28,845 nt of DNA. Source: a virus. This document shows, piece after piece, positions 3,300 to 20,560 of this stretch. Position 1 is the first letter of the stretch. Each line of letters starts with the position of its first letter. A program made the translations under genes and the position numbers. A model generated the notes under the pieces. It was not told the DNA's origin and ran no database searches. It was given only the letters and a program-made list of their open reading frames with translations. The stretch spans positions 1 to 28,845 of IMG/VR virus record IMGVR_UViG_3300017786_001684. The stretch is one strand, 5' to 3'.

Positions 3300-5168
3300 G
3301 TGCCTTTACAAAAACTTTTATTTAAACCAGGAATAAATAAAGAAGGAACCGCTTATTCTAATGAGGGAGGGTGGTTTAATTCTAATTTAATTCGTTTCCG
3401 TAAAGGTTTACCAGAAAAAATAGGTGGTTGGGAAAAAGCATCCCCCAGCAGTTTTAAAGCATCAGGTAGAGCACTTCATGCATGGGTTGATTTAGAAGGA
3501 ACTAAGCTTTTAGGTTTAGGCACTACTTGGAAATACTATATATTAGACGGTTTAAGTTTTAATGACGTAACCCCTATTAGAGCTACTACAACCAACGGTA
3601 TTGTTTTTTCTGCTACTGACGGAAGTACAACTATAACAGCAACTGATGATGCTCATGGAGCTGTATTAAATGATTTTGTAACAATTAGCGGTGCCGTAAG
3701 TCTTGGCGGTAATATTACTGCTGCTGTATTAAATCAAGAACATCAAATCACATCAGTTACAACAGATACATTTACTTTTACAGCGACTGCAACAGCTAAT
3801 TCAAGCGATAGTGGTAACGGTGGTTCTGGTGCAGACGCAGCTTATCAAATAAATGTGGGGTTAGACGTGTATGTACCTTCAACAGGTTGGGGTTCTGATT
3901 TTTGGGGAGCAGGAGCTTGGGGAAGTGTTTCTGGTTTAGCAGCTACAAACCAATTACGTCTTTGGTCTCATGATAATTTTGGAGAAGATTTAATTATAAA
4001 TCCTAGAGGCTCGGGTGTTTTTTATTGGGATAAAACTAATGGAACAGAAACTAGAGCTGTAATTTTATCTTCTCTTACAGGAGCGAATCTAACCCCTACT
4101 AAAGCGTTACAAGTTATGGTGTCTGATGTAGATAGACACGTTATTTGTTTCGGAGCAGACCCTTTAAACGACGGAGGAACAGCTAGAACAGGTTCAATAG
4201 ACCCTATGTTTATAGCTTGGAGTGACCAAGAAAAAGTAGAAGAATGGGAACCACTTCCAACAAATACAGCAGGGTCGTTTAGACTTTCAGCAGGTTCAGC
4301 AATAGTAGGTGCAACACGAGCTCGACAAGAAACACTTATTTGGACAGATACTTCTTTATATTCTATGACTTTTGTGGGGCAACCTTTTACTTTTTCTATT
4401 AACTTAGTCAATGAAGGTGTGGGATTAGTAGGACCTAATGCTATGGTTAATACCCCTAAGGGCGTGTTTTGGATGGATAAAAAAGGTTTTTATCTTTATT
4501 CAGGACAAGTACAAGAGTTACCCTGTAGCGTAGATGCTTATGTTTTTGATGATTTAAATCAAACACAAAGTTATCAAATATTCGGTTTCGTTAATAAAGC
4601 TTTTAATGAAGTAGGTTGGTTTTATTGTTCTTCAGAAACAACGGTTATAGATAAATATGTTACGTATAACTATGAAGAAAATATATGGATGATAGGAGAC
4701 CTTTCTAGAACGTGTTGGTTAGACGAGGGTATTTTTCCAGACCCTAAAGCGACGTCTTCGTCTAGTAACGTCGGGTATTTATACAATCATGAATCTGGTG
4801 TAGACGACGACGGTTCTGCTATGACTAATGTTTTTATAGAATCTAGTGATTTTGATTTAGGAGAAGGAGACGCATATCAATTTATTAGTAAAGTTATTCC
4901 TGATATTAAATTTATAGGAAACGCTAGTACAGGAGCTAACGGGCAAACATTAGATATAGTTTTAAAAAGAAGAAATTTTCCAGGAGAAGAATTAACTACA
5001 GCAGTTACTAGTTCTTGTACTTCTGTTACAACTAAAGTAGATACAAGAATTAGAGGTAGGCAAGCAGTATTAAGACTTCAATCAAACGATACAGATACAT
5101 CAGTTATCGGTATGAGTTTTAGAGCAGGAGCAACCCGTATCGATATACAACCTGACGGTAAAAGATAA
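3300..5168 (+). CDS. Virion structural protein, probable tail nozzle/hub (gp10/gp12-like)
   Basis: The start is GTG with AGGAGA seven bases upstream. The 622-residue protein opens with a segment common in phage structural proteins (KPGINKEGTAYSNEGGWFNS, then IRFRKGLPEKIGGW). Its middle, residues ~290-440, carries blade-like strands (FIAWSDQEKVEEWEP, ETLIWTDTSLYSMTF, VFWMDKKGFYLYSGQVQELP) resembling the beta-propeller nozzle proteins of podoviruses such as P22 gp10 and T7 gp12. Residues ~85-170 look like an inserted Thr/Ala/Ser-rich beta domain. It is followed by a 1-base overlap with the next gene. Virion structural protein is well supported; the nozzle assignment is inference from fold-like features. 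Confidence 0.75.
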   Translation: MPLQKLLFKPGINKEGTAYSNEGGWFNSNLIRFRKGLPEKIGGWEKASPSSFKASGRALHAWVDLEGTKLLGLGTTWKYYILDGLSFNDVTPIRATTTNGIVFSATDGSTTITATDDAHGAVLNDFVTISGAVSLGGNITAAVLNQEHQITSVTTDTFTFTATATANSSDSGNGGSGADAAYQINVGLDVYVPSTGWGSDFWGAGAWGSVSGLAATNQLRLWSHDNFGEDLIINPRGSGVFYWDKTNGTETRAVILSSLTGANLTPTKALQVMVSDVDRHVICFGADPLNDGGTARTGSIDPMFIAWSDQEKVEEWEPLPTNTAGSFRLSAGSAIVGATRARQETLIWTDTSLYSMTFVGQPFTFSINLVNEGVGLVGPNAMVNTPKGVFWMDKKGFYLYSGQVQELPCSVDAYVFDDLNQTQSYQIFGFVNKAFNEVGWFYCSSETTVIDKYVTYNYEENIWMIGDLSRTCWLDEGIFPDPKATSSSSNVGYLYNHESGVDDDGSAMTNVFIESSDFDLGEGDAYQFISKVIPDIKFIGNASTGANGQTLDIVLKRRNFPGEELTTAVTSSCTSVTTKVDTRIRGRQAVLRLQSNDTDTSVIGMSFRAGATRIDIQPDGKR

Positions 5169-5494
5169 TGGGTAAATTATTAGAAACTAAATTACCTGTT
5201 GCTATAGGACCTCTTTCACCAGAACTTTTTAACAGGTTAGTCAGAGTATTAGAGTTAAGTTTAAATAAAGTTAATATTGGTTCAACTGTAAACTTTAATG
5301 AAACGGAAAGAAACCTTAATCAATTTAATACGGGCGATATTATTTGGAATTTAACAACTCAACAATTACAAATTTGGACAGGAACAATATGGGTAGATAT
5401 TTATTCAGGAACAGAAAAAGGAGTTCAGGGAACGATGTCTCTTGGACAAATAAGCGTATCAACTGGTGGCGATACAACAATAGAAATATTATAA
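5168..5494 (+). CDS. Small virion-associated hypothetical protein, 108 residues
   Basis: Start overlaps the nozzle gene's stop by one base. The N-terminal half is helical (LLETKLPVAIGPLSPELFNR). The C-terminal half holds a short beta motif DIIWNLTTQQLQIWTGTIW, a pattern often seen at the end of phage fibre and tail-associated proteins where a label-like beta hairpin precedes the tip. There is no enzymatic motif. From position it is likely a small tail component or adaptor next to the nozzle; the specific role is unknown. Confidence 0.72.
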   Translation: MGKLLETKLPVAIGPLSPELFNRLVRVLELSLNKVNIGSTVNFNETERNLNQFNTGDIIWNLTTQQLQIWTGTIWVDIYSGTEKGVQGTMSLGQISVSTGGDTTIEIL

Positions 5495-5505
5495 AAGGGG
5501 ATACT

Positions 5506-5946
5506 ATGAATATGAAAAAATTACAAGAAGAATTAACTTTCGACGAGGGTTGTATCGATAAAATATATTTAGACCATTTAGGGTACCCGACTTTTGGTAT
5601 TGGTCATTTGATATTAGAAACAGACCCTGAACACGGACAAGATGTAGACACTCCTGTGTCTGAAGAAAGAATAACTGAATGTTTTGAAAAAGATATACAA
5701 AACGTTATAAATGATTTAAATAGAAATATGGAATGGTGGAAAGATTTACCAGAAGATTTACAAAGAGTTATGGCTAATATGTGTTTTAATTTAGGTATAA
5801 CTAGGTTATTAAAGTTTAAAAAATTCTTAGCAGCTATGGAAGAAAATAAATGGGATAAAGCAGCGGTTGAAATGTTAGATAGTCGTTGGGCTATACAAGT
5901 AGGTCCCCGAGCTATAAGATTGAAAGATAGAGTTTTAGGAGCATAA
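5506..5946 (+). CDS. Endolysin, T4-type lysozyme (muramidase)
   Basis: Glycoside hydrolase family 24. From the ATG at 5506 (AAAAGGGG upstream) the protein is 146 residues, close to T4 lysozyme (164). The catalytic triad is intact with T4 spacing: E14, D23 and T29, in the context TFDEGC, YLDHLGYPTFGIGHL. The C-terminal lobe keeps the MCFNLGITRLLKFKKFLAAM and WDKAAVEMLDSRW segments. It hydrolyses peptidoglycan between MurNAc and GlcNAc. There is no signal peptide, so a holin should be needed for release. The longer open frame beginning at 5344 was not used because its extra residues overlap the previous gene out of frame and make no sense for this family. Confidence 0.93.
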   Translation: MNMKKLQEELTFDEGCIDKIYLDHLGYPTFGIGHLILETDPEHGQDVDTPVSEERITECFEKDIQNVINDLNRNMEWWKDLPEDLQRVMANMCFNLGITRLLKFKKFLAAMEENKWDKAAVEMLDSRWAIQVGPRAIRLKDRVLGA

Positions 5947-5947
5947 T

Positions 5948-6094
5948 ATGAAAGTTAAAGCACCAAAAGGATTTCATTGGATGAAAAATGGTAAATCATT
6001 TAAGTTAATGAAACATAAAGGTAAATTTGTAAAACACAAAGGTGCCAGTTTATCAGCAAATTTTGCAGTACAAAAAATGCATAAGAAAAAATAG
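5948..6094 (+). CDS. Small lysine-rich phage protein, 48 residues
   Basis: A short gene starting two bases after the lysozyme stop. The product is very basic, with Lys, His and Gly throughout (KAPKGFHWMKNGKSFKLMKH, then FVKHKGASLSANFAVQKM). This pattern recurs in small proteins of marine phages near lysis genes. No known domain. It forms a set with the next two lysine-rich proteins and may bind nucleic acid or the cell envelope; this is inference from charge. Confidence 0.75.
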   Translation: MKVKAPKGFHWMKNGKSFKLMKHKGKFVKHKGASLSANFAVQKMHKKK

Positions 6095-6102
6095 GAGAAA
6101 AA

Positions 6103-6300
6103 ATGCCAGCAAAAAAGAAAACACATAAAACTAAAGACGGTAGAACTGCTAAGAAAGGTCTTTATTACAACATAAATAAAAAACGTAAAGAAGGTAGAAA
6201 AATGCGTAAGAAAGGAGCTAAAGGTGCACCTACAGCTGCAGCGTTTAAACGTTCTGCTAAAACAGCTAAAAAGCCTAAAAAGAAAAGTAAGAAAAAATAA
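6103..6300 (+). CDS. Small lysine-rich phage protein, 65 residues
   Basis: GGAG lies upstream of the ATG. About half of the residues are Lys or Arg, in a pattern (KKKTHKTKDGRTAKKGLYYN, then KRKEGRKMRKKGAKGAP) that I recognise from conserved small proteins of many aquatic phages, always without an assigned role. The C-terminal tail is Ala/Lys/Pro-rich, like histone H1 tails. It ends in a one-base overlap (TAATG) with the next gene. DNA compaction or host nucleoid interference would fit the charge, but nothing in the sequence proves it. Confidence 0.8.
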   Translation: MPAKKKTHKTKDGRTAKKGLYYNINKKRKEGRKMRKKGAKGAPTAAAFKRSAKTAKKPKKKSKKK

Positions 6301-6596
6301 TGGCTACAAAACGTAAAGAAAAGTCTATAAGACGTACTACAGGTAAAGGCGGTAATTACCGCAAAACTAAATCAGGTGCGGGAATGACTAAGAAAGGCGT
6401 TAAAGCATATAGGAGAAAAAATCCTGGTAGCAAATTAAAAACAGCTGTTACAGGTAAAGTCAAAAAAGGAAGTAAAGCAGCAAAAAGAAGAAAGTCTTAT
6501 TGTGCTAGAAGTGCGGGACAGATGAAGAAATTTCCTAAAGCTGCTAAAAATCCTAATTCAAGATTACGTCAAGCACGTAAAAGGTGGAAATGTTAA
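6300..6596 (+). CDS. Basic phage protein, DUF6321-like, 98 residues
   Basis: Contains the conserved core KKGVKAYRRKNPGSKLKTAV, then KGSKAAKRRKSYCARSAGQM and a C-terminal RLRQARKRWKC, which I recognise as the DUF6321 pattern of aquatic phage proteins. Two Cys (in SYCARSAG and the final residue) are in conserved places and could bind metal or form a disulfide. The function of the family is not known to me. It is the third of three consecutive, strongly basic small genes, and the nuclease gene overlaps its stop by one base. Confidence 0.83.
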   Translation: MATKRKEKSIRRTTGKGGNYRKTKSGAGMTKKGVKAYRRKNPGSKLKTAVTGKVKKGSKAAKRRKSYCARSAGQMKKFPKAAKNPNSRLRQARKRWKC

Positions 6597-6997
6597 TGGC
6601 TAAAAAAGCACCAGATGCGTTTGTATACAACGCTACATTAGAAAGAATAATAGACGGAGACACATTTGATTGTTGTCTCGATTTAGGTTTTGATGTTAAA
6701 CTTCATAAACAAAGAGTTCGTCTTTCAGGTATTGACACACCTGAGTCTAGAATTAACACAAAACGATACCCCGAAAGAGCTAAAGAAAAAATCATGGGTA
6801 AAGCTGCAAAAGTGAGATTAGCCGAAATCTGTAAAGGAAGTTTTAAAGTCAAATCTTTAGGCAAAGGAAAATATGGTAGAATTTTAGGCATTCCGTATAC
6901 AGAAGAAGGTAACGATATTTGTCAAATGTTAATAGACGAAGGACATGCTGTTGAGTATCATGGAGGTACAAAGACTAAAATCTGGGGAGTTGATTAA
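6596..6997 (+). CDS. Staphylococcal nuclease-like (thermonuclease, SNase) protein
   Basis: 133 residues from the ATG at 6596, which overlaps the upstream stop and has AAGGTGG eight bases before it. An in-frame ATG at 6584 is possible but poorer. The key SNase residues line up: D20/D22 and T23 in RIIDGDTFD, R42 and E50 in RVRLSGIDTPE (the same R-x7-E spacing as R35/E43 of SNase), D47, and R95 in KYGRILG (matching R87). It should be a calcium-dependent phosphodiesterase acting on DNA and/or RNA. No signal peptide is seen, so it would act in the cytoplasm, perhaps in host DNA breakdown or nucleotide recycling. Confidence 0.9.
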   Translation: MAKKAPDAFVYNATLERIIDGDTFDCCLDLGFDVKLHKQRVRLSGIDTPESRINTKRYPERAKEKIMGKAAKVRLAEICKGSFKVKSLGKGKYGRILGIPYTEEGNDICQMLIDEGHAVEYHGGTKTKIWGVD

Positions 6998-7002
6998 TTG
7001 TT

Positions 7003-7353
7003 ATGGACTCCGTAGTAACTTTAATTAATGAAGTTGGTTTCCCAATAGCAGCAGCTATAGGTCTTGGTTTATTTATTTGGAAACTTATTAATAAAATTAT
7101 TGACGGCATGGAAACTAAAGTAGATGTACTAGACGAAAAAGTATCAGCACAAATAGCACAAATAGAAGAAAGATTAGGTCAAAAACTAGATTCACAACAC
7201 GGTATATTAGTAGCTCTTATAGATAGGGTACGTTCTGTAGATAACGAGATAATTAGACAAGATACTTTGTTAAAGACTATACTTGGTGTACCGCAACTTA
7301 TGAATACGGATAGAATAGCAAAAGCAGATAGAGACGACCAAAGGAAAGATTAA
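7003..7353 (+). CDS. Holin-like membrane protein with coiled coil
   Basis: 116 residues. One membrane helix at residues ~10-30 (EVGFPIAAAIGLGLFIWKLI) resembles YvrJ/BhlA-type small holin-related proteins. A long charged coiled coil follows (residues ~37-85) and a soluble, charged C-terminus. It lies between the nuclease and the curli-like genes and downstream of the lysozyme, where a holin is expected. Alternatively it is a membrane scaffold. The start was chosen as the first ATG after the nuclease stop; the next gene overlaps its TAA by one base. Confidence 0.75.
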   Translation: MDSVVTLINEVGFPIAAAIGLGLFIWKLINKIIDGMETKVDVLDEKVSAQIAQIEERLGQKLDSQHGILVALIDRVRSVDNEIIRQDTLLKTILGVPQLMNTDRIAKADRDDQRKD

Positions 7354-7538
7354 TGATAAAAGTATATGCTACAGAATTTAAACACGACGGCAATATCTAT
7401 GATGGACCTTATATTTACGCTAGAAGTTTAGAAGAAGCAGAAATGGAAGCTGTTGTTTATGGAGTAACTGTTATAGGGTTAATAGAAATAGTTCTTAAAA
7501 CAGATGAAGACCTAAGCCCAGATAGAGTTTTACATTAA
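7353..7538 (+). CDS. Small conserved phage protein, 61 residues
   Basis: Short acidic protein with a beta-alpha-beta look: a KVYATEFKHDGNIYDGPYIY strand pair, a helix ARSLEEAEMEAVVYG, and a strand VTVIGLIEIVL. I have seen similar IYDGPYI-type proteins in marine phages but know no function. The pattern resembles small domains that follow membrane or lysis genes. The start is coupled by a TAATG overlap with the holin-like gene. Confidence 0.75.
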   Translation: MIKVYATEFKHDGNIYDGPYIYARSLEEAEMEAVVYGVTVIGLIEIVLKTDEDLSPDRVLH

Positions 7539-7549
7539 TGAGGTGTTAA

Positions 7550-8050
7550 ATGAAAGAAACTGAAAAACAAAAAGAAGAAGCTGAAAAAATTTTAATAACT
7601 AAAATTATGGTAGTTATCGGAATTATGTTATTTGTAGGAATATTTTGTCAAAATCTTTGGTCTGACCAAATAGTACATAAATTTAAATCACCTAGTTTTA
7701 ATGGTATAGGTACATCGTCTCATTACTTAACTATAGAAAACCAAGAGTTTAGTCGTAAACTAACAATTAAAGAAGAAATTAAAGCCTTACAAGATGAAAT
7801 AGAAAGAGAAAAAGAAAACTCCACACTTGCTAGGTTTATGCGTAATCTTGAATCAAGAGTCTATGCTGAATTATCAAGACAACTAGTTAATAACCTCTTT
7901 GGAGAAACACCGCAAAGTTCGGGTACAATAACTTTAGAAGGCAACACCATTGAATATACAAGCGATGGAGTAACATTAACTTTAAAGATAACGGAACAAG
8001 ATGGGACAATTACCTCGATTACAATTCCTATTGGTACTTTTACTTTCTAG
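7550..8050 (+). CDS. csgF: CsgF-like curli secretion accessory protein
   Basis: 166 residues. After a charged N-terminus and a hydrophobic export segment (residues ~16-34), residues 41-66 read QIVHKFKSPSFNG...SSHYLTIENQE. This matches the F-[KR]-[NS]-P-x-F and following part of CsgF that inserts into the CsgG pore. Residues ~94-118 match the CsgF helix, and 126-162 match its C-terminal strands (TIEYTSDGVTLTLKITEQDG). An extra charged helix at residues ~70-93 (KLTIKEEIKALQDEIEREK) is absent from E. coli CsgF. In bacteria CsgF caps the CsgG channel at the cell surface and couples secretion to curlin nucleation. The csgG-like gene overlaps by 50 bases. The export segment could be a cleaved signal or an anchor. 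Confidence 0.85.
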   Translation: MKETEKQKEEAEKILITKIMVVIGIMLFVGIFCQNLWSDQIVHKFKSPSFNGIGTSSHYLTIENQEFSRKLTIKEEIKALQDEIEREKENSTLARFMRNLESRVYAELSRQLVNNLFGETPQSSGTITLEGNTIEYTSDGVTLTLKITEQDGTITSITIPIGTFTF

Positions 8051-8837
8051 TTGTTCTACTTTTGACCAATTTGAAGATACGTACGAACAGAGATATAAAG
8101 CACAAGACGTAGTTTCTATTCAAGAACTACAATCACCGTATTTGCGTGATGTAGCTGTTCCTGAAGTTAGTCCTGTAGTTGCTGTATATCCTGCTGCTTT
8201 TACAGACCAAACAGGACAAAGGAAAAGCAATAGTGAATTTGCACTATTTAGTACAGCTATAACACAACAACCAAATGCATTACTTATACGAGCTTTAAAA
8301 CACGCAGGTAATGGTCAATTTTTTAGAGTAGTTGAACGAGTAGGATTAGATAATTTAACTAAAGAAAGACAGCTTATACGTTCTGCAAGAGAACAAACAG
8401 CTAATGAAGAAGAGAAAAAGAAAGCACTAAGACCATTATTATTTGCTGGTATCTTAATAGAAGGAGCTGTTATATCTTACGAAGCTAATTTAGAATCTGG
8501 AGGTATTGGAGCTAGGTATCTTGGTATTGGTAATAGCATACAATATAGAGAAGATAATATTACTGTAAGTTTACGTATGGTTTCTGTAGCTACTGGTGAG
8601 ATTTTATTAGAAGTATTAAGTCAAAAAACTATATTTAGTTACGGTAAATCAGAAGATGTATTTAGATTTATAGAAGCAGGTACAGAACTAGTAGAAATAG
8701 AATTAGGTAATGCTAGAAACGAATCATCAACTATAGCATTAATGAAAGCGATTGAAGGTGGTGTATTAGAAATAATAAACCAAGGATATGAAAGAAATTT
8801 TTGGATTTTACAAAAAACAGAAAAGGAGGTAGAATGA
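8001..8837 (+). CDS. csgG: CsgG-like curli secretion channel lipoprotein
   Basis: 278 residues, close to E. coli CsgG (277). It has a lipoprotein signal with lipobox LSSC (C18). Family segments occur in order: VYPAAFTDQTGQ (~62-73), FSTAITQQPNALLIRALKHA (83-102), FFRVVERVGLDNLTKERQLI (107-126), ILIEGAVISYEANLESGG (151-168), ARYLGIGNSIQYREDNITVS (171-190) and VATGEILLEVLSQKTI. CsgG oligomers form the outer-membrane pore for curlin export. No frameshift or gap is visible. Its start lies inside csgF, so the whole signal peptide is encoded within the csgF 3' end. The constriction loop (residues 74-83) differs from E. coli: F83 is kept, but the residues matching Y51 and N55 are not. Confidence 0.92.
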   Translation: MGQLPRLQFLLVLLLSSCSTFDQFEDTYEQRYKAQDVVSIQELQSPYLRDVAVPEVSPVVAVYPAAFTDQTGQRKSNSEFALFSTAITQQPNALLIRALKHAGNGQFFRVVERVGLDNLTKERQLIRSAREQTANEEEKKKALRPLLFAGILIEGAVISYEANLESGGIGARYLGIGNSIQYREDNITVSLRMVSVATGEILLEVLSQKTIFSYGKSEDVFRFIEAGTELVEIELGNARNESSTIALMKAIEGGVLEIINQGYERNFWILQKTEKEVE

Positions 8838-9574
8838 TTGAGTTAATCATGAAAAAGTACATACTGTTATTATTGTGTGTTGTTTTATTACCGTTACAAG
8901 CGGCAGATAATGAAATATATGTAGACCAGTCAGGGACTGGAGCTAACATAGATTTAGAACAACTAGGCATATCAAATATTATAGGTGGTTTAAATTCTAC
9001 TGCAGGGTCTTTAACTGCTTTCGATTTAGACGGCACTACTATGACACTTGATATTAATATGATTGGTGCAACTAATAAATTCTTAGGTGATATAAACGCT
9101 GACACTTTTACAGGTTTATATAATTTTACTGGCGGTAGTAATAATTTCACTATACAAGTAGACCCAACTAATACTTATAGCTCAGATAATTCTGACCAAA
9201 ACGTAGCAGTTACAGGCAGTAGTAATACATTTACTTTAAATCAAGGTACTACAGCAATAGCAGCATCTCTTAATCTTGATTGGATTATTCAAGGTTCTAA
9301 TAACACAGTTACTTCTAATATCAATATTGATGGTGCTACAAACTATATGGATATAGATGGCAGTGATAATACAGTAAATTATACAGGTACTGGTGTTAAT
9401 GCTTCAGCAGGTGGATATTTTTGGCTAGACCATACAGGCGGACAAAGAACATTTAATATTCAACAACTGAGTACCCAAGACAATGACTGGCTTAAAATTA
9501 TATCTATTGGCGGTAATGCTTCTAGCACCGTTTGTGTTATCCAAAACGACCAAGGAACAAGCACAAGCTGTTGA
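8834..9574 (+). CDS. Curlin-like secreted repeat protein (candidate amyloid substrate)
   Basis: 246 residues from the ATG at 8834, which overlaps the csgG stop (ATGA) and follows AAGGAGG at 8823-8829. The N-terminus is a Sec signal peptide (KKYILLLLCVVLLPLQA, cut near A24). The mature start, YVDQSGTGANIDLEQLGISN, has the Q-x-G-x-x-x-N ... Q-x-G-x-x-N spacing of curlin repeats. At least six further weak repeats follow with a G-x-x-N turn and alternating beta residues (GATNKF, GGSNNFTI, GSSNTFTL, GSNNTVTS, GATNYMDI, GSDNTVNY). Two Cys lie near the end (CVIQNDQGTSTSC). It has few charged residues and is rich in Asn/Thr/Gly/Ser. It is the probable cargo of the adjacent CsgG/CsgF pair; identity as curlin is inferred. 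Confidence 0.72.
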   Translation: MIELIMKKYILLLLCVVLLPLQAADNEIYVDQSGTGANIDLEQLGISNIIGGLNSTAGSLTAFDLDGTTMTLDINMIGATNKFLGDINADTFTGLYNFTGGSNNFTIQVDPTNTYSSDNSDQNVAVTGSSNTFTLNQGTTAIAASLNLDWIIQGSNNTVTSNINIDGATNYMDIDGSDNTVNYTGTGVNASAGGYFWLDHTGGQRTFNIQQLSTQDNDWLKIISIGGNASSTVCVIQNDQGTSTSC

Positions 9575-10601
9575 TATAGGCGATATATCTGAACTAAACG
9601 GTTCAGCACAAATAGTAAGAGATAAACCTTACGATGCTAATTTACAATTTGCTATCCAAAGCAATGACGAAGCTATTACTACTAATGGTAGAATGGCTAT
9701 CACTTTTTTAGATGATTCTACAGTAAAACTTACCGAACATTCACAACTTCTTATAGACGAATATATTTACGACCCCGACCCTAGTAAAGCTAAAATGGCA
9801 CTTACGTTTGGGTTAGGAACAGCTAGGTTTATTACAGGCAACTTAAATAAAATAGATAAACAAAATATATCTCTTAAAACTCCGACAGCCAACATTGCCA
9901 TTCGTGGCACAGATTTCACAGCGACGGTTGATGAATTAGGACGTTCACTTATTATTTTACTCCCCGACCCTTTTGGTTTATCTAGCGGAGAAATAGAAGT
10001 AGTTACTGCTATGGGAACTGTTTTATTAAATAAACCATATGAAGCAACTACGGTAAGCGTGTTTGAGTCAGCACCAACTAAACCCGTTATTTTAGATTTA
10101 ACTTTAGATGTAATAGATAATATGTTGATTGTTACACCTCCTAAAGAAGAAGCCGTTATAGAAGAAGAGGCTACAAGTACAAAAACAGAAAATGTTTTAG
10201 ATTTTAATGATTTAGATATAGATTACTTAGCAGAAGATTATTTAAAAGAAGATAGTTTAGGATTTACTGAACTCGATATAAATTATCTTGATGTAAATTA
10301 TTTAGAAGATTTGTTAAATGTACTAGATGCACTAGCCGTAGCTGAGGACGAAGACCAATTAGCACAAGCTACTAGTACACAAATATCAGGAACATCTTTA
10401 GGTAAAGACCCTGAAACACAAATAACAGCTTTAATTACAGGTAACGTAGTTAGTTTACGAAGACAAGTAAACGAAAGCGTTAGGGTTGATTTAGACGGTA
10501 GTAATGCTTATACAGTAATTTTGATACAAGACGGTGTTTCTAATATAATTAAAATTAACGGAGGAAGTGATAGTGTAATTACAATTACACAAAGTGATTA
10601 A
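9483..10601 (+). CDS. Exported FecR-domain protein with curlin-like C-terminal repeat
   Basis: 372 residues. Signal peptide at residues 1-20 (KLYLLAVMLLAPFVLS), which fixes the start even though it lies 92 bases inside the curlin-like gene. Residues ~34-160 form a FecR domain, with DISELNGSAQIVRD, AITTNGRMAITFLDDSTVKL and ANIAIRGTDFTATVDELG. Residues ~235-295 are very acidic with DIDYLAEDYL/DINYLDVNYLEDLL repeats. Residues 335-372 (DGSNAYTVILIQDGVSNIIK onward) carry the Q-x-G-x-x-N and I-x-I-x-Q pattern of a curlin repeat. FecR domains are periplasmic signal or scaffold modules, often next to CHASE2 cyclases. Without the TonB receptor or sigma factor, a role in transport regulation is unlikely. 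It may anchor or nucleate the fibre, or report on it to the cyclase. Confidence 0.82.
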   Translation: MTGLKLYLLAVMLLAPFVLSKTTKEQAQAVDIGDISELNGSAQIVRDKPYDANLQFAIQSNDEAITTNGRMAITFLDDSTVKLTEHSQLLIDEYIYDPDPSKAKMALTFGLGTARFITGNLNKIDKQNISLKTPTANIAIRGTDFTATVDELGRSLIILLPDPFGLSSGEIEVVTAMGTVLLNKPYEATTVSVFESAPTKPVILDLTLDVIDNMLIVTPPKEEAVIEEEATSTKTENVLDFNDLDIDYLAEDYLKEDSLGFTELDINYLDVNYLEDLLNVLDALAVAEDEDQLAQATSTQISGTSLGKDPETQITALITGNVVSLRRQVNESVRVDLDGSNAYTVILIQDGVSNIIKINGGSDSVITITQSD

Positions 10602-12334
10602 TGAAAAAATTTATATTTATATTACTGCCTTTATTAGTATTACCTTTATTATTTCAAACCACGCCGACAGAAATAATAAAACTAAAAACTTTTGATAAAT
10701 TAATAAAGAAACAAGAACCTAGTGGTAATTTTGTTATATTAAATATAACAGAAGATGATGTAGAACGTGAAGGCGGTTATCCTTTACCTAGAAAAAGATT
10801 AGCAGATATACAAATGGAGATTCTTGGCAAAGGAGCTCTTGGAGTTGGTTGGGTTATATCATTTCCACAAGCAGACAGACTTATGGGGGACGAAGATTTT
10901 TCTAGGTCTTTAGGTTATGCTCCTAGTGTAATAGCTACGTTCGAAGACGGTAATAAAAATTATCCTAAAACAACAGGTACCGTTATTAAAGGTCCCGATG
11001 TTGGTGGTTTATTTTCTACAGGAGTTAAACAAAATTTTTATCTTTACGATGATATAGCACAAGGAGTTGCTATAGCCCCAGTTGAAGTAGACCAACTTGT
11101 TAGGCGTATTCCTCTATTATTAAAAACGCCTGACGGTTGGGCTCCTTCTTTCGGAGTTCATGTTTTAAAAAATTTAACAAATGCTCGTACGTATATTATT
11201 ACTACTAACGATAACGGCGTACAAGAAATAGCTGTTAGAGGTATATCGCCAGTAAAAACAGATAGTCTTGGTCGTAAGTGGATTAGTTGGGTAGAAACAG
11301 AAGAAACAAACTTACAAGAAATGGATGTAAACGGCAGGTTTGTATTTGTTGGAGTTACGGCTAATGGTGTGATGCCGCAAATCGCTACACCTGTTGGATT
11401 ACTTGAACCACATAAAATTCAAGCAGCATTAGCAGAATCAATACTTATACAAAATAGTCCTTATATTCCTGATTACGCTTTAGCCTTAGAACTTTTAATA
11501 TTTATAACGTCTGTAGGGCTTATCTGGGCGTTTATAAGCTATTTAGGAATAACTTGGGGAATAAGTCTAGGATTAATAACTATAGCCTTAACGGGCTTAT
11601 ACGGGGTTTATACGATAGGTACAGGAGTTTTAATAGATGTAACTTGGTCTTTAATCTCTCAGTTTATTACAGGTAGTGTAGCTTTTTATCTAAGGTTTAG
11701 AGAACAATGGAGATTAAGAGAACAAGTAAAGAAACAGTTTGAACATTATTTAGACCCTAGACAAGTTAAACGTTTACAAAAAGACCCTGATTTATTAAAA
11801 CTAGGTGGAGAAAAAAGACGTTGTACTTTTTTATTTACAGACGTAAGAGGTTTTACTGCTTTATCAGAAACGTTACCTCCAGAAGAAGTAACAACTATAA
11901 TGAATAAAGCATTAACAATACAATCAGATACAGTTAAAAAGTATGACGGTATGGTAGATAAATATATTGGTGATGCAATGATGGCAATATTTAACGCACC
12001 TATGGATTTACAACATCATGAACAATTAGCCGTAGAATGTGCTAAAGAAATACAACAAACTATAATAGATGCAGAAATAGGAGTTGAGATTGGTGTAGGC
12101 GTAAATACAGGTGAAGCTGTTATTGGTAATATGGGAAGCGATACAAGGTTTGATTATAGTGCTATAGGGGACGCAGTAAATACAGCCGCTAGGTTAGAAT
12201 CAGCTACTAAAGAAGCGGGTGTAAATATCCTTATAGGCGAAGAAACAGAAAAATATTGTGGTATTCCTTTAAAACAATTAAAACCAATAAAAGTAAAAGG
12301 TAAAGAAAAAGCTTTAAAAATATATACTTTTTGA
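10601..12334 (+). CDS. CHASE2-domain membrane adenylate cyclase (class III)
   Basis: 577 residues. The order is: N-terminal membrane helix (residues 4-19), periplasmic CHASE2 sensor (~25-290), three membrane helices (~295-312, 320-341, 344-365), a helical linker, and a class III nucleotidyl cyclase domain (~400-577). Catalytic residues look complete: metal ligands D414 (FTDVRGF) and D458 (KYIGD), adenine-selecting K454 and D518 (RFDYS), and transition-state N527 and R531 (DAVNTAARLES). K plus D at the selecting positions favours ATP, so cAMP is the expected product. The gene starts in the fecR stop (TAATG). Such cyclases are common in bacteria but unexpected in a phage. The stimulus sensed by CHASE2 is unknown; the FecR or curlin protein is a candidate. 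Confidence 0.93.
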   Translation: MKKFIFILLPLLVLPLLFQTTPTEIIKLKTFDKLIKKQEPSGNFVILNITEDDVEREGGYPLPRKRLADIQMEILGKGALGVGWVISFPQADRLMGDEDFSRSLGYAPSVIATFEDGNKNYPKTTGTVIKGPDVGGLFSTGVKQNFYLYDDIAQGVAIAPVEVDQLVRRIPLLLKTPDGWAPSFGVHVLKNLTNARTYIITTNDNGVQEIAVRGISPVKTDSLGRKWISWVETEETNLQEMDVNGRFVFVGVTANGVMPQIATPVGLLEPHKIQAALAESILIQNSPYIPDYALALELLIFITSVGLIWAFISYLGITWGISLGLITIALTGLYGVYTIGTGVLIDVTWSLISQFITGSVAFYLRFREQWRLREQVKKQFEHYLDPRQVKRLQKDPDLLKLGGEKRRCTFLFTDVRGFTALSETLPPEEVTTIMNKALTIQSDTVKKYDGMVDKYIGDAMMAIFNAPMDLQHHEQLAVECAKEIQQTIIDAEIGVEIGVGVNTGEAVIGNMGSDTRFDYSAIGDAVNTAARLESATKEAGVNILIGEETEKYCGIPLKQLKPIKVKGKEKALKIYTF

Positions 12335-15552: not shown

Positions 15553-17210
15553 TGGCTAAATTTACTCCATTTCCAACATTCGGCGGTAAAGACGGAATCG
15601 CTGGAATTACTCCTGTTAAATTATCACCTACCCCTATGAGGTTTCCTACGGCACGAGGACCTGTTAGACGTGCTCCAGAACCAACAACCGAAGAAAAACT
15701 AGCTCCTTTTCTTCCGTTAGTAACAGAAGGTATTAGAGGTTTAATTAGCGATAAACCTGAAGTTCTTTCAGATACAGATTATTTAACAAGTATTGGAGCT
15801 GACCCAGAAGACCCTACGTTTAAAGAACAAACTAGGTTAGACGCTTATAAATTATATGGACCTCCTAAAGAGAAAAACCGTTTCGGTTTAGACGAAATAT
15901 TAAATATAGGTGTCGCTAGCCAAATGGGTAGAGGAGCAACTAACTATGGTAAAACTTATTTTAATTTAAGAAACGCTGAAGAAACAGACAGATTAAATAC
16001 AGAAAAATTAAGAGCTGAGTATATAAAAAGTCAAAAACCTACTAAATACAATACTGTAAATTTATTAAGTAAATCTGACCATTCTGCAGGTGTTAAAGGA
16101 GTTTATCAAGGGCGTGAAAATGAAGATACAGGTGAATTAGAACTTCAACTTAAAAACGAAGATGGAAGTTTTAGTTACGAAATAGCAGGTCCTAATTTTA
16201 TAAAACAAACAGGAACAGGGAATATTGATTTACCTGAAAATACTAATATTAAATTAGTCGACGATATTCTAGACCCTATTTTTGAAAAAGAAGAAGCGAT
16301 AACTAATTTAGTACAACAAGGTAGTAATACTATACGTACTTTGGAAGGTGTTATAGAAAGCGGAGATATAACTCCAAATACTATTACGTCAGCGTTATTC
16401 GGAATTGGTAACCAAGCTAGACTAGAATTAGATAACTTACGAAAAATGGGAGCTATTGGTTCGGGAGAACGATTATTCGCTACTGAAAAAGATGTCGAAA
16501 ACGGAGTAGCAGGTGGAAATAAAAACTCTCCAGAAAGAGCAGGCACAGGTCAATTAGCAGAACAATTATATTTAGCATTACAATCAGGAGATACTGATAG
16601 AATAAATAGTGCAACGTTAGCTTTTGAAGAAAGTTTTTTACAAGATAAATTAAATAATGCGAATGGACTTACTATTAGACAATTGTTAGGTGATGTTGTT
16701 TATGACGATGTTACTTTAAGGTCGCAAATGTTATCTTTAGCTTATACAGCAGCAGCCGTAAATGGTCAAACAGGTAGAACATTATCCGATAAAGATTTAG
16801 CTTACCATTTACAAATAGTTGGTTTAAACCAAACATCAGACCCAGAAATTTTAATAAAAAATCTTCAACGATTTATAGGTGATGCCGTAAATAAAGTAGA
16901 TAGCGAAGCTCAATTAGCTTTGCAACAAAACTGGTTTAGGTTCGATTTAAATGATAAATATACACAATCAGCTATAAAACAATATTATAGACCCCCTGAA
17001 AGTCCTACCCCTTTAAACGACCCTTTAAATCCATATAATTTTTTATATCCTAGTGAATTTAATCAATACACATTTAGACCTTTAGGTGAAAGATATACCG
17101 ATATAGGTTTTGAGCAATTTACAGGTGTTAATAATACTCAATCTTCAAGTATTCCAGTACCTAATGATATAGAAAATATGATATTAGAAGAAATGAAAAA
17201 TATTAAATAA
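15552..17210 (+). CDS. Probable internal virion protein, 552 residues
   Basis: N-terminus is Pro-rich (KFTPFPTFGGKDGIAGITPV and PTARGPVRRAPEP). The rest is mostly helical and soluble, with no signal peptide or clear membrane segment. Residues ~405-425 carry TGRTLSDKDLAYHLQIVG, a motif I associate with marine phage virion proteins; a related GRxxSDxDL motif occurs three times in the 262-residue protein encoded at 21585. Position between two large late genes and 1-base overlaps on both sides suggest a tail or ejection component. I cannot name a specific homologue. Confidence 0.7.
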   Translation: MAKFTPFPTFGGKDGIAGITPVKLSPTPMRFPTARGPVRRAPEPTTEEKLAPFLPLVTEGIRGLISDKPEVLSDTDYLTSIGADPEDPTFKEQTRLDAYKLYGPPKEKNRFGLDEILNIGVASQMGRGATNYGKTYFNLRNAEETDRLNTEKLRAEYIKSQKPTKYNTVNLLSKSDHSAGVKGVYQGRENEDTGELELQLKNEDGSFSYEIAGPNFIKQTGTGNIDLPENTNIKLVDDILDPIFEKEEAITNLVQQGSNTIRTLEGVIESGDITPNTITSALFGIGNQARLELDNLRKMGAIGSGERLFATEKDVENGVAGGNKNSPERAGTGQLAEQLYLALQSGDTDRINSATLAFEESFLQDKLNNANGLTIRQLLGDVVYDDVTLRSQMLSLAYTAAAVNGQTGRTLSDKDLAYHLQIVGLNQTSDPEILIKNLQRFIGDAVNKVDSEAQLALQQNWFRFDLNDKYTQSAIKQYYRPPESPTPLNDPLNPYNFLYPSEFNQYTFRPLGERYTDIGFEQFTGVNNTQSSSIPVPNDIENMILEEMKNIK

Positions 17211-20200
17211 TGGCTACTTCTCAAATACTTTCATCAATAGACCAGAATATAGATACTTTATATAATAAACCTTTATCTAATAACCCAAATATAACTTATG
17301 GTAATGTTTTATCTCCAGAACAAACTAAATTATATTTAATAGGTAATTCAGGAGCGATACAAAAATCTTTACTTGATTCGGGTGAATTAACTTTAGAACA
17401 ACTTGACCAACTAAATCAAGAAATAATGCCTAATTTACAAAAACGAGTGAACTCTTATGATTTATCACCTATTCCGTATACTTTAGAAGACAGGTTTCCT
17501 GAAAAAGCAGCAGAAATTAATAGAATAGAAGAAGAAAAAAGTTCTCGTGAAGGACAACAAAGAAGAATAGACGCAGGGGTACGTGGTAATTTTCCTGCTG
17601 ATTTTACTCCTGGAACTATAGAACCTTTTGTTAGACCTAGATTTGACGAAGCACAAGAAATAGCAGGCTACGGTTTAGACCCAGACAATCCTTATGATTT
17701 TGGAGGAAATAGTCAAACTAAACGTCAGTTTTTCATAGATGATGCTTTAGGTCCTAGGAGAAAATCTAAAGAACAAATGCAATATTTATTAGATAGATAT
17801 GATATGAAAGGTGATTTATCTTTTATAGACCCTAAAAAACCGCAATTAGGTTTTAGATTTAAACCTGAAGGTAGCGAAACTTACCAAGTTTTAAATAGTC
17901 CTTATATAGAAGGGACTGATGTTATGCGACAATTAGTATCCGAAGGACCTGCTTTAATAGGTGATATTGCTGCTACTACATGGGCGGCTACAACAAATCC
18001 ATTAGGTGGTAAATATCAAATACCTAAAACTATTTTAGGTACTGTAGGAAGAATAGGTGGTTTATCCGCAGCAGCGACAACAGGAACACTGGCGGGAGAA
18101 TGGACTCGTTTAGGTGTGGGGTTAGCAAGAGGAGCTCATGATATGAGTATAACAGAAATGATGAACGAATCTCAACTTCCTGCTTTAATTGCTTTTGGGG
18201 GTACTGCCGCTGTTTCTTCAGCACAAAAAGTATTACCCGCTATTTACGAAAGTATTGTAGGTAAAAGAATACCCCCCGAGTTTTATGAATATTTAGCTAA
18301 ATTAAACGCAAAATACATACAAGAAGAAAAAGGAGTACCAGCGTCGTCTGGTTTTAAATTTAATCAAAAACAATTAACTGTAAAAGAAATAAACGAACAA
18401 ATAGATGAACTCGGTGATTTTATAGGTCAACGTTTAGGTAGTTATGAACCAACAGGTGCGGGGCTTTCAGCAGCTGATGATGATTTAGCAAAACTTTCAG
18501 CTGATTTTGAATATATATTTTTAGAAAATGCTTTAAATCCAAAGTATAAAGAAGCTTATGCAGGAATTAAATCAGGTAATCAAGATTTAATAAAAAGATT
18601 AACAGAAAACATTTCTTCTAAACGATTTAAAAACGCTAGTGTTGAAATAGACGAAGCGGTAATGGGTAGAGTCGAACAAAAAATAGCTTCTTTTACAGAC
18701 GCTCAAAATACAATAATAAATAAATTAAGAGACCCTAAATATTTTGACCAAAACATAGATGATGTTTTATTCGGCACTACTCCTAAAAGAGGGTCTAGTG
18801 CTACTTTTCCTAAAGAAACAACTAATTTAAAAGACGCACAAATAAGTTATTTAAGTAGATATACTGACGAATTTAATGCGGTATTAAATAACCCTAAATA
18901 CAGTGATTTAAAAGTAGGTTCTACAAAAGATTTACAAAAGAACGTGGGTAGATATTTTAATACTACAAAAACAAAAAAGAATGTTGAAGAATTTATTGGT
19001 AGTATGGATGACCCAGATATTAAAAAAGTTTTTGGAAACGTTATTGGTAAAAACCGAGAAACTTTAATGAGGTTGATGGGTAAAGATAAAGCAGGTAAAT
19101 TTTCTAGAGCTAATTTAACTTTAGACGAAATATTTCAATTAAGAACTGCTATGAATCAAATAAGAGCAACACATCCTGTGTCTGGAATACAAAAATTAGC
19201 GGGAGAAATAGAAGAATCATTGGGGTTAGCTTTAGATAAAGGTATACAAGACCATATTTGGGTTAATAAATTAGGTAATAAAACAGCTCGTACTAAATAT
19301 AACAAAAAACAAGTATCAGAAATAGAAAAATATCAAATAGATAATGATTATGGTATCGATATAGCTAATTCGTATAAAACCATGACTAATGCTTATAGCG
19401 ATACACGAAATGTTTTATTAACAACTTTATTAAAACAAGGTAATCCTGATAAATTAGCTTCTACTGTATTGAATCAAGGTCCTACTAATGTAACTTCTTT
19501 TATGAGAGTATTACAAGAAGCAGGGGACGACGGAGCAATGCAAATAAGAAAAGCAATGGCAAAACATATAGATGATAAAATTTTAGATGAAGGTGCTCCT
19601 GCTTTAACTAATGTTAAAAACTATAAAACGTTCGTTAAAGAAAACCAAGATGTATTAAAAGCTGTTTTTGGTGATGATTTTAAAACAATGTTTAATCCTG
19701 CTGGTTTTAATAGAGTAGTTAATAAAATAAATAAATACGATGAAAAAATACTCATGTTAAAAGCTGTTTATCCTGATGCATCTAATACAGCTCCCGTTTT
19801 TGATATTGTTGACGATATTATAAGAAGTAGTAAAGGTGAATTAGAAACAGGTAGAACAGCAGCCAAAATTAGGTTTTTAATGGATACGGTTGGAGATGAT
19901 GTAATATTACAAGAACAAATACAAGCAATAACAAAAAGATTTATAACAAGAGATATGTTAGATTTAGCTAAAGGTGGTGATGGTTTATGGAAAGTAAATC
20001 CTGAAAAGTTAAATAAAATTTTAAATGAAGGTCCTGGACCTGTTGGTTTAACTGGTCAAACTTTTGAAGAAATATATGTACCTTTATTAGGTGGGAATAA
20101 AGCAGCAGAACGATATACTAAAAATTTAAGATTATTAAATAATATAATAATGAGAGAAGCAGGCGTAGGTGCTTCAGAAGGAGCAAAAACAGCAGTAAAA

Positions 20201-20560
20201 GAAAGCACCCAAGCTTTTCCAGGAGCAACGTTTTTATTTAGAATGCTTATACCTCCACTAACACAAAGAGGACGTAGAGCAACCGCTATAAATAGAGCTT
20301 TAAATGCTAGAGCGGGTGATTTTATGGCTGAATTAGTTGCTAAGCCTAAATTATTAGATGATACTTTAAAATATATGGAAGGCAAAATAGCTTTAAATAG
20401 ATATGTAAATATTTTATCTTCTTATGGTATTGTATCTTTTAATGATATAGGTGAAGAACTTCAATACTATAATACAGAATTAAAAACGAATAAGAAAACA
20501 ACAATAACAGATGAACTTAAAGCTGAACTTACTAAACTGCAAGAAAAACTAGGATATTAA
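17210..20560 (+). CDS. Large virion ejection-type protein, 1116 residues
   Basis: The longest gene in the window. N-terminal ~230 residues are soluble with repeated acidic/Pro-rich segments. Residues ~245-350 form a hydrophobic, Gly/Ala/Thr-rich stretch (IGDIAATTWAATTNPLGG, GRIGGLSAAATTGTLAGEW, PALIAFGGTAAVSSAQKVLP) that could insert into membranes. The remaining ~750 residues are highly helical and charged. This layout, length and position match internal ejection proteins of podoviruses (T7 gp16-like in role), which leave the virion to form the DNA channel across the cell envelope. There is no lytic transglycosylase motif. The role is inferred from layout rather than a named motif. Confidence 0.7.
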   Translation: MATSQILSSIDQNIDTLYNKPLSNNPNITYGNVLSPEQTKLYLIGNSGAIQKSLLDSGELTLEQLDQLNQEIMPNLQKRVNSYDLSPIPYTLEDRFPEKAAEINRIEEEKSSREGQQRRIDAGVRGNFPADFTPGTIEPFVRPRFDEAQEIAGYGLDPDNPYDFGGNSQTKRQFFIDDALGPRRKSKEQMQYLLDRYDMKGDLSFIDPKKPQLGFRFKPEGSETYQVLNSPYIEGTDVMRQLVSEGPALIGDIAATTWAATTNPLGGKYQIPKTILGTVGRIGGLSAAATTGTLAGEWTRLGVGLARGAHDMSITEMMNESQLPALIAFGGTAAVSSAQKVLPAIYESIVGKRIPPEFYEYLAKLNAKYIQEEKGVPASSGFKFNQKQLTVKEINEQIDELGDFIGQRLGSYEPTGAGLSAADDDLAKLSADFEYIFLENALNPKYKEAYAGIKSGNQDLIKRLTENISSKRFKNASVEIDEAVMGRVEQKIASFTDAQNTIINKLRDPKYFDQNIDDVLFGTTPKRGSSATFPKETTNLKDAQISYLSRYTDEFNAVLNNPKYSDLKVGSTKDLQKNVGRYFNTTKTKKNVEEFIGSMDDPDIKKVFGNVIGKNRETLMRLMGKDKAGKFSRANLTLDEIFQLRTAMNQIRATHPVSGIQKLAGEIEESLGLALDKGIQDHIWVNKLGNKTARTKYNKKQVSEIEKYQIDNDYGIDIANSYKTMTNAYSDTRNVLLTTLLKQGNPDKLASTVLNQGPTNVTSFMRVLQEAGDDGAMQIRKAMAKHIDDKILDEGAPALTNVKNYKTFVKENQDVLKAVFGDDFKTMFNPAGFNRVVNKINKYDEKILMLKAVYPDASNTAPVFDIVDDIIRSSKGELETGRTAAKIRFLMDTVGDDVILQEQIQAITKRFITRDMLDLAKGGDGLWKVNPEKLNKILNEGPGPVGLTGQTFEEIYVPLLGGNKAAERYTKNLRLLNNIIMREAGVGASEGAKTAVKESTQAFPGATFLFRMLIPPLTQRGRRATAINRALNARAGDFMAELVAKPKLLDDTLKYMEGKIALNRYVNILSSYGIVSFNDIGEELQYYNTELKTNKKTTITDELKAELTKLQEKLGY

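Follow-up and report, generated by a model that had tools for sequence, protein, structure and literature searches.

The stretch of DNA analyzed here (the window) is a 28,845-base fragment of the genome of a short-tailed phage. It raises the question of why a phage should carry curli-type genes in one run with a FecR-domain protein and a CHASE2 adenylate cyclase, and what such a run would do in the infected cell. The window helicase is 58% identical to that of 023Pt_psg01, 57% to DSL-LC04, 52% to HTVC027P and 47% to HTVC023P, and the tail protein at 3300-5168 shares 36-39% identity with its counterparts in DSL-LC04, Roseobacter phages and HTVC023P. Based on these protein comparisons, we assign the source phage to the podoviruses related to Pelagibacter phage HTVC023P. 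SAR11 is the likely host; the host of DSL-LC04 is recorded as Gammaproteobacteria. Among the other products of the window are a fibre-like protein (2-1573) with NTAVGxxAL-type repeats and a C-terminal Peptidase_S74 chaperone domain, and an 1116-residue protein (17210-20560) with no tblastn match in the phage collection and no Pfam family. Two small, very basic proteins are encoded at 6103-6596, directly upstream of the nuclease gene and the cassette; the second matches DUF6321 (E 8e-12), and both are seen again in related loci.

A sequence-only reading of the window had placed five tightly overlapping genes at 7550-12334 and named their families. All five open reading frames lie where that reading put them, all on the plus strand, and Pfam profiles together with a curlin-repeat matrix bear out every family call. 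The run comprises a CsgF-like protein with an N-terminal hydrophobic segment (7550..8050; PF10614, E 9e-15), a CsgG-like outer-membrane pore lipoprotein (8001..8837; PF03783, E 7.5e-46, lipobox LLSSC), a curlin-like predicted secreted protein (8834..9574; curlin-repeat matrix 22.9 bits, PF07012 weak), a FecR-domain predicted exported protein (9483..10601; PF04773, E 9e-10), and a protein composed of a CHASE2 sensor, a transmembrane region and a class III adenylate cyclase (10601..12334; PF05226, E 1e-21; PF00211, Guanylate_cyc, E 1e-20). The CsgG, CsgF and CHASE2 profiles, whose failure to match would have counted against the reading, thus all match. The proposed extent of the block is right for these five genes but not for its start, which lies at 7003, where a sixth gene is found upstream on the same strand.

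The csgF and csgG frames overlap by about 50 bases (8001-8050) and those of curlin and fecR by 92 bases (9483-9574), and both overlaps are kept in relatives, with median intergenic gaps across loci of −49, −13, −88 and +3. This conservation suggests translational coupling or genuine overlapping coding. The dN/dS ratios of the five genes are about 0.07-0.31 in six comparisons, some with high dS values; the genes are under purifying selection, and decay in related phages, which the earlier reading had named as a way in which it could fail, is rejected because of these ratios.

That reading had also taken the set to be new, a view that does not hold since the full set was published in 2022: Wittmers et al. 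(PMC9599517) described a T8SS (curli) module that includes FecR and adenylate cyclase and is carried by HTVC023P-type podoviruses and by pelagimyophages. The published module has the order CsgF-CsgG-curlin-FecR-cyclase, with one or two small genes in front of CsgF, and the window shows the same order, from small gene to cyclase. It differs from the window in having a second curlin gene and in the name of its upstream gene, called a histidine kinase there and holin-like with no kinase match here; CRP, holin and CHASE2 are not mentioned in that paper. The cultured myophages HTVC008M and Melnitz likewise carry the cassette with its genes in this order, but in them the small upstream gene is present twice and, unlike in the window, a second curlin gene separates FecR from the cyclase; their CsgG proteins are 38-44% identical to that of the window. 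The reading that we favor, and to which we give roughly even credence, is that the window carries this known pelagiphage type VIII module and that the module works as an export line for a curlin-type protein, to which a FecR/CHASE2 sensor is attached.

The linkage of the genes was followed in three scans of marine phage contigs, using the cyclase, CsgG and the small protein, each of which yielded at least 590-595 confirmed relatives (at least 591 for the cyclase). Because the following counts come from the 80 best loci per scan, and the same contigs recur between scans, they describe close relatives rather than a census. CsgF, CsgG, curlin and FecR precede the cyclase in order in all 44 loci of the cyclase scan with enough upstream sequence. 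In the CsgG scan, csgF and the small membrane protein are found upstream in 57/57 loci, and curlin, FecR and cyclase downstream in 52/52. The small-protein scan gave csgF and csgG in 66/66 loci. The idea that the five genes might never occur together elsewhere clearly fails; they form a fixed block, and the proposal of a complete secretion-plus-sensor unit, syntenic in many marine phages, is supported by both gene content and co-occurrence. Cassette-bearing phage contigs were also found inside bacterial genome bins assigned to Pelagibacter, Maricaulis, Rhodobacteraceae, Flavobacteriaceae and Neomarinimicrobiota, and can therefore mislead searches for bacterial curli.

The sixth gene (7003..7353) always travels with the cassette, a feature that is new here: the small membrane protein is encoded upstream of csgF in 44/44, 57/57 and 66/66 loci of the three scans (best 80 each), and within the phage collection a gene of this type occurs only in the module carriers HTVC008M and Melnitz, besides one weak match (E 0.3). 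Its 116-residue product has a single hydrophobic segment near the N-terminus; the rest of the protein is charged and coiled-coil-like, and the flanking charges suggest that this part is cytoplasmic. It matches the uncharacterized family PHROG 18771 strongly (E 1e-16) and the holin family PHROG 4898 weakly (E 1e-4), and eight representatives of the protein and its homologues gave no kinase family match in Pfam. From its sequence the protein looks holin-like and without a kinase domain. The gene is very probably the "histidine kinase" of Wittmers et al. 2022, because position and copy number agree; the published label is not backed by any kinase match. In 42 of 44 loci, the gene directly before csgF shares 16-64 bases with the csgF open frame. 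In the window, a 61-residue open reading frame (7353..7538, plus strand) lies between the holin-like gene and csgF; its position is not conserved and it has a match in three loci only, so it probably lies outside the core cassette.

A holin-like gene fixed upstream of csgF also bears on the proposal made for Melnitz by Buchholz et al. 2022 (PMC9004378), in which CsgG/CsgF would be repurposed as an outer-membrane channel that times or completes lysis, here together with the holin-like protein. The window cassette adjoins endolysin and nuclease genes, as this proposal would have it, but just 12 of 44 loci have a lysozyme-like gene of the window's type upstream of the cassette, so the neighborhood of lysis genes, from which the earlier reading had drawn outer-membrane permeabilization, is a weak argument. 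The Melnitz paper argued from curli fibre genes said to be missing, whereas the GenBank annotation of Melnitz 5107-7901 lists curlin-repeat proteins, a FecR protein and a cyclase, with the repeats above the Pfam cut-off; the curli set of Melnitz is not incomplete. A lysis channel also leaves the conserved curlin and the FecR tail described below unexplained, and we regard it as an unlikely function.

The first two components of the favored export line agree well with known type VIII secretion. In addition to its Pfam match and lipobox, CsgG matches solved CsgG and CsgG-CsgF chains by profile (E 1e-66). CsgF carries the N-terminal motif F-K-S-P-S-F-N-G, the counterpart of the bacterial NPxFGG; the phage motif is present in 52 of 53 phage CsgF proteins and NPxFGG in nearly all bacterial CsgF examined. 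The phage genes share with the Escherichia coli curli operons homologous CsgF and CsgG and curlin-type repeats. Unlike those operons, they come without the CsgE gate, which was found in none of 15 module-bearing records; CsgE raises curli output but is not essential (PMC7029224).

The third component is diverged. The PF07012 curlin repeat is below threshold in the window (E 0.0017 at 8906-8968) and above cut-off in the aligned Melnitz homologue. Using a weight matrix built from 654 bacterial curlin repeats only, the window protein reaches its score against a shuffle mean of 1.7 bits, with none of 300 shuffles as high. The AlphaFold2 model (pLDDT 80), from alignments that left out the HTVC008M and Melnitz proteins, shows a regular series of short β-strands; a Foldseek search of the PDB with this model gave no significant match, only weak β-helix and amyloid matches. 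We consider the protein to be a diverged curlin-like protein and a candidate fibre subunit. Host aggregation, superinfection exclusion and the blocking of grazers, which the earlier reading had put forward, are likewise candidate uses. Such a fibre could be a surface adhesin that captures sibling cells or excludes other phages, the cyclase pair only regulating the host or phage programme, as has been proposed (Zaragoza-Solas 2020; Wittmers 2022). The complete export set and the purifying selection on curlin are in keeping with this function, but Melnitz cultures show no clumping (PMC9004378) and the fibres are putative; we think it improbable, though worth weighing.

The FecR protein may tie the export line to the sensor. 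It begins with a hydrophobic export-type segment, and bacterial FecR proteins align with only about residues 25-235. In its C-terminal half, beyond the reach of these matches, the phage protein ends in a curlin-like repeat, VILIQDGVSNIIKINGGSDSVI (residues 345-366), a feature that we report here from the matrix scores. The repeat scores 12.9 bits, whereas shuffled sequences average −4.3 and 0/300 of them score as high. Since the 70 viral FecR proteins are related, the counts that follow represent one conserved feature rather than 70 events: 55 of the 70 score at least 10 bits, and in 68 the best curlin window falls within the last 35 residues. Of 614 other viral open reading frames, 7 reach 10 bits, two of them the second curlins of the myophages and the rest mostly N/T-rich. 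The HTVC008M and Melnitz FecR tails score low with the matrix and keep only the terminal I-x-Q pattern. Because the AlphaFold2 model of FecR is poor (pLDDT 45), the contact role considered below rests on sequence.

Only FecR domain matches were found in this protein, with no anti-sigma region recognized, and there is no sigma gene among the island and neighboring proteins scanned. An option raised by Wittmers et al. 2022 (PMC9599517) is a pore that takes up nutrients or iron compounds, FecR being in that case an iron regulator. A CsgG pore without its CsgE gate might indeed stay open, but the matched FecR region is a domain common to large bacterial proteins, no kinase accompanies FecR, and uptake needs no curlin; we judge this role very improbable.

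The sensor half of the favored export line is a CHASE2 class III adenylate cyclase whose catalytic residues are intact. The metal-binding positions, Lys454 and Arg531 are invariant in 79 phage cyclases, and the transition-state residue Asn527 is present in 78, the exception being Melnitz with Ser. At position 520, Melnitz has Asp, whereas the other phage cyclases share Ser or Thr with the bacterial CHASE2 cyclases. In Sinorhizobium, cAMP is made constitutively from a cyclase plasmid that lacks CHASE2, and the targets in that pathway include a FecR-domain protein (PMC5498481).

A receiver for cAMP is harder to find. Searching with the cNMP-binding domain PF00027, we found it in 20 of 298 genomes of the SAR11 order, the order of the known hosts, and not in the other 278; in 18 of the 20 the domain belongs to one recurring long frame of 870 residues or to a short copy of that frame, and 1 of 298 has it in a CRP-sized frame. 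In a SAR11 family sample the domain is present in 3 of 60 genomes, and both class III cyclases above cut-off in that sample lie on contigs carrying the phage module. A phage-encoded CRP-type receptor is rejected, none of 37 module-bearing viral records having the domain; as many of the genomes and viral records are incomplete, these absences are statistical. SAR11 thus seems, from these domain searches, to be without the usual cAMP receptor despite the phage cyclase, a point that is also new here, and the cAMP output is left without a known receiver. The earlier proposal that the phage couples its fibre to cAMP in the infected cell is accordingly doubtful, and our interpretation is weakest at the cAMP step. 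A more specific version, a phage-private feedback circuit in which the curlin-tailed FecR reports the state of fibre export to the CHASE2 cyclase, with a cAMP receiver outside the CRP family in a host without its own cAMP pathway, is a tentative idea that we would not expect to hold.

Bacterial counterparts of the two halves were examined separately. Bacterial curli operons were gathered through CsgF family searches, because the CsgG contig scan gave mainly phage-module contigs in bacterial bins. Unlike the phage cassette, the 37 bacterial curli loci examined, with flanks of about 9 kb on each side where the contig allowed, showed neither FecR nor a CHASE2-cyclase. The same FecR profile detects FecR in 134 of 372 alphaproteobacterial genomes, and capture of an intact bacterial five-gene operon is therefore rejected. 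At least 21 of these 372 genomes have a FecR gene within 5 kb of a CHASE2 gene; these neighboring pairs have the same catalytic residues as the phage cyclase but do not lie beside curli genes in the loci examined, and their FecR proteins match the phage protein only over the limited region given above. With bacterial curli loci lacking FecR and cyclase, whereas FecR and CHASE2 genes are neighbors elsewhere in Alphaproteobacteria, the phage module appears to have been joined from separate parts: the curli genes, FecR paired with the CHASE2-cyclase, and a holin-like gene. On the inference of Wittmers et al. (PMC9599517), the module came from Alphaproteobacteria and later passed between phage families. 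One genome of the SAR11 family sample (1.2 Mb, without a class III cyclase match) has FecR and CHASE2 genes 2.4 kb apart (contig C1:324111-328045).

In the favored model of a working export line with an attached sensor, the cassette would be expressed from the late, structural and lysis part of the genome, presumably late in infection. The phage CsgG pore would sit in the outer membrane of the host, where CsgF would be its partner on the extracellular side, and the curlin-repeat protein is predicted to pass through this pore to the cell surface. The exported FecR protein, with its curlin-like tail in the periplasm, may connect the export line with the CHASE2 domain of the inner-membrane cyclase, perhaps as the ligand of that domain. 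Backed-up or absent curlin, or FecR itself, might then start or stop cAMP synthesis. The small membrane protein encoded at 7003 would be an obligate inner-membrane partner.

The cassette is found widely among contigs of marine phages, as the number of relatives in each scan indicates, and is kept intact under selection; it must therefore pay off for the phages that carry it. The new constraints frame specific questions about how it does so: the role of the obligate 7003 protein, the FecR tail as a link between export and signaling, and the detector of cAMP in a host almost without CRP-type receptors.
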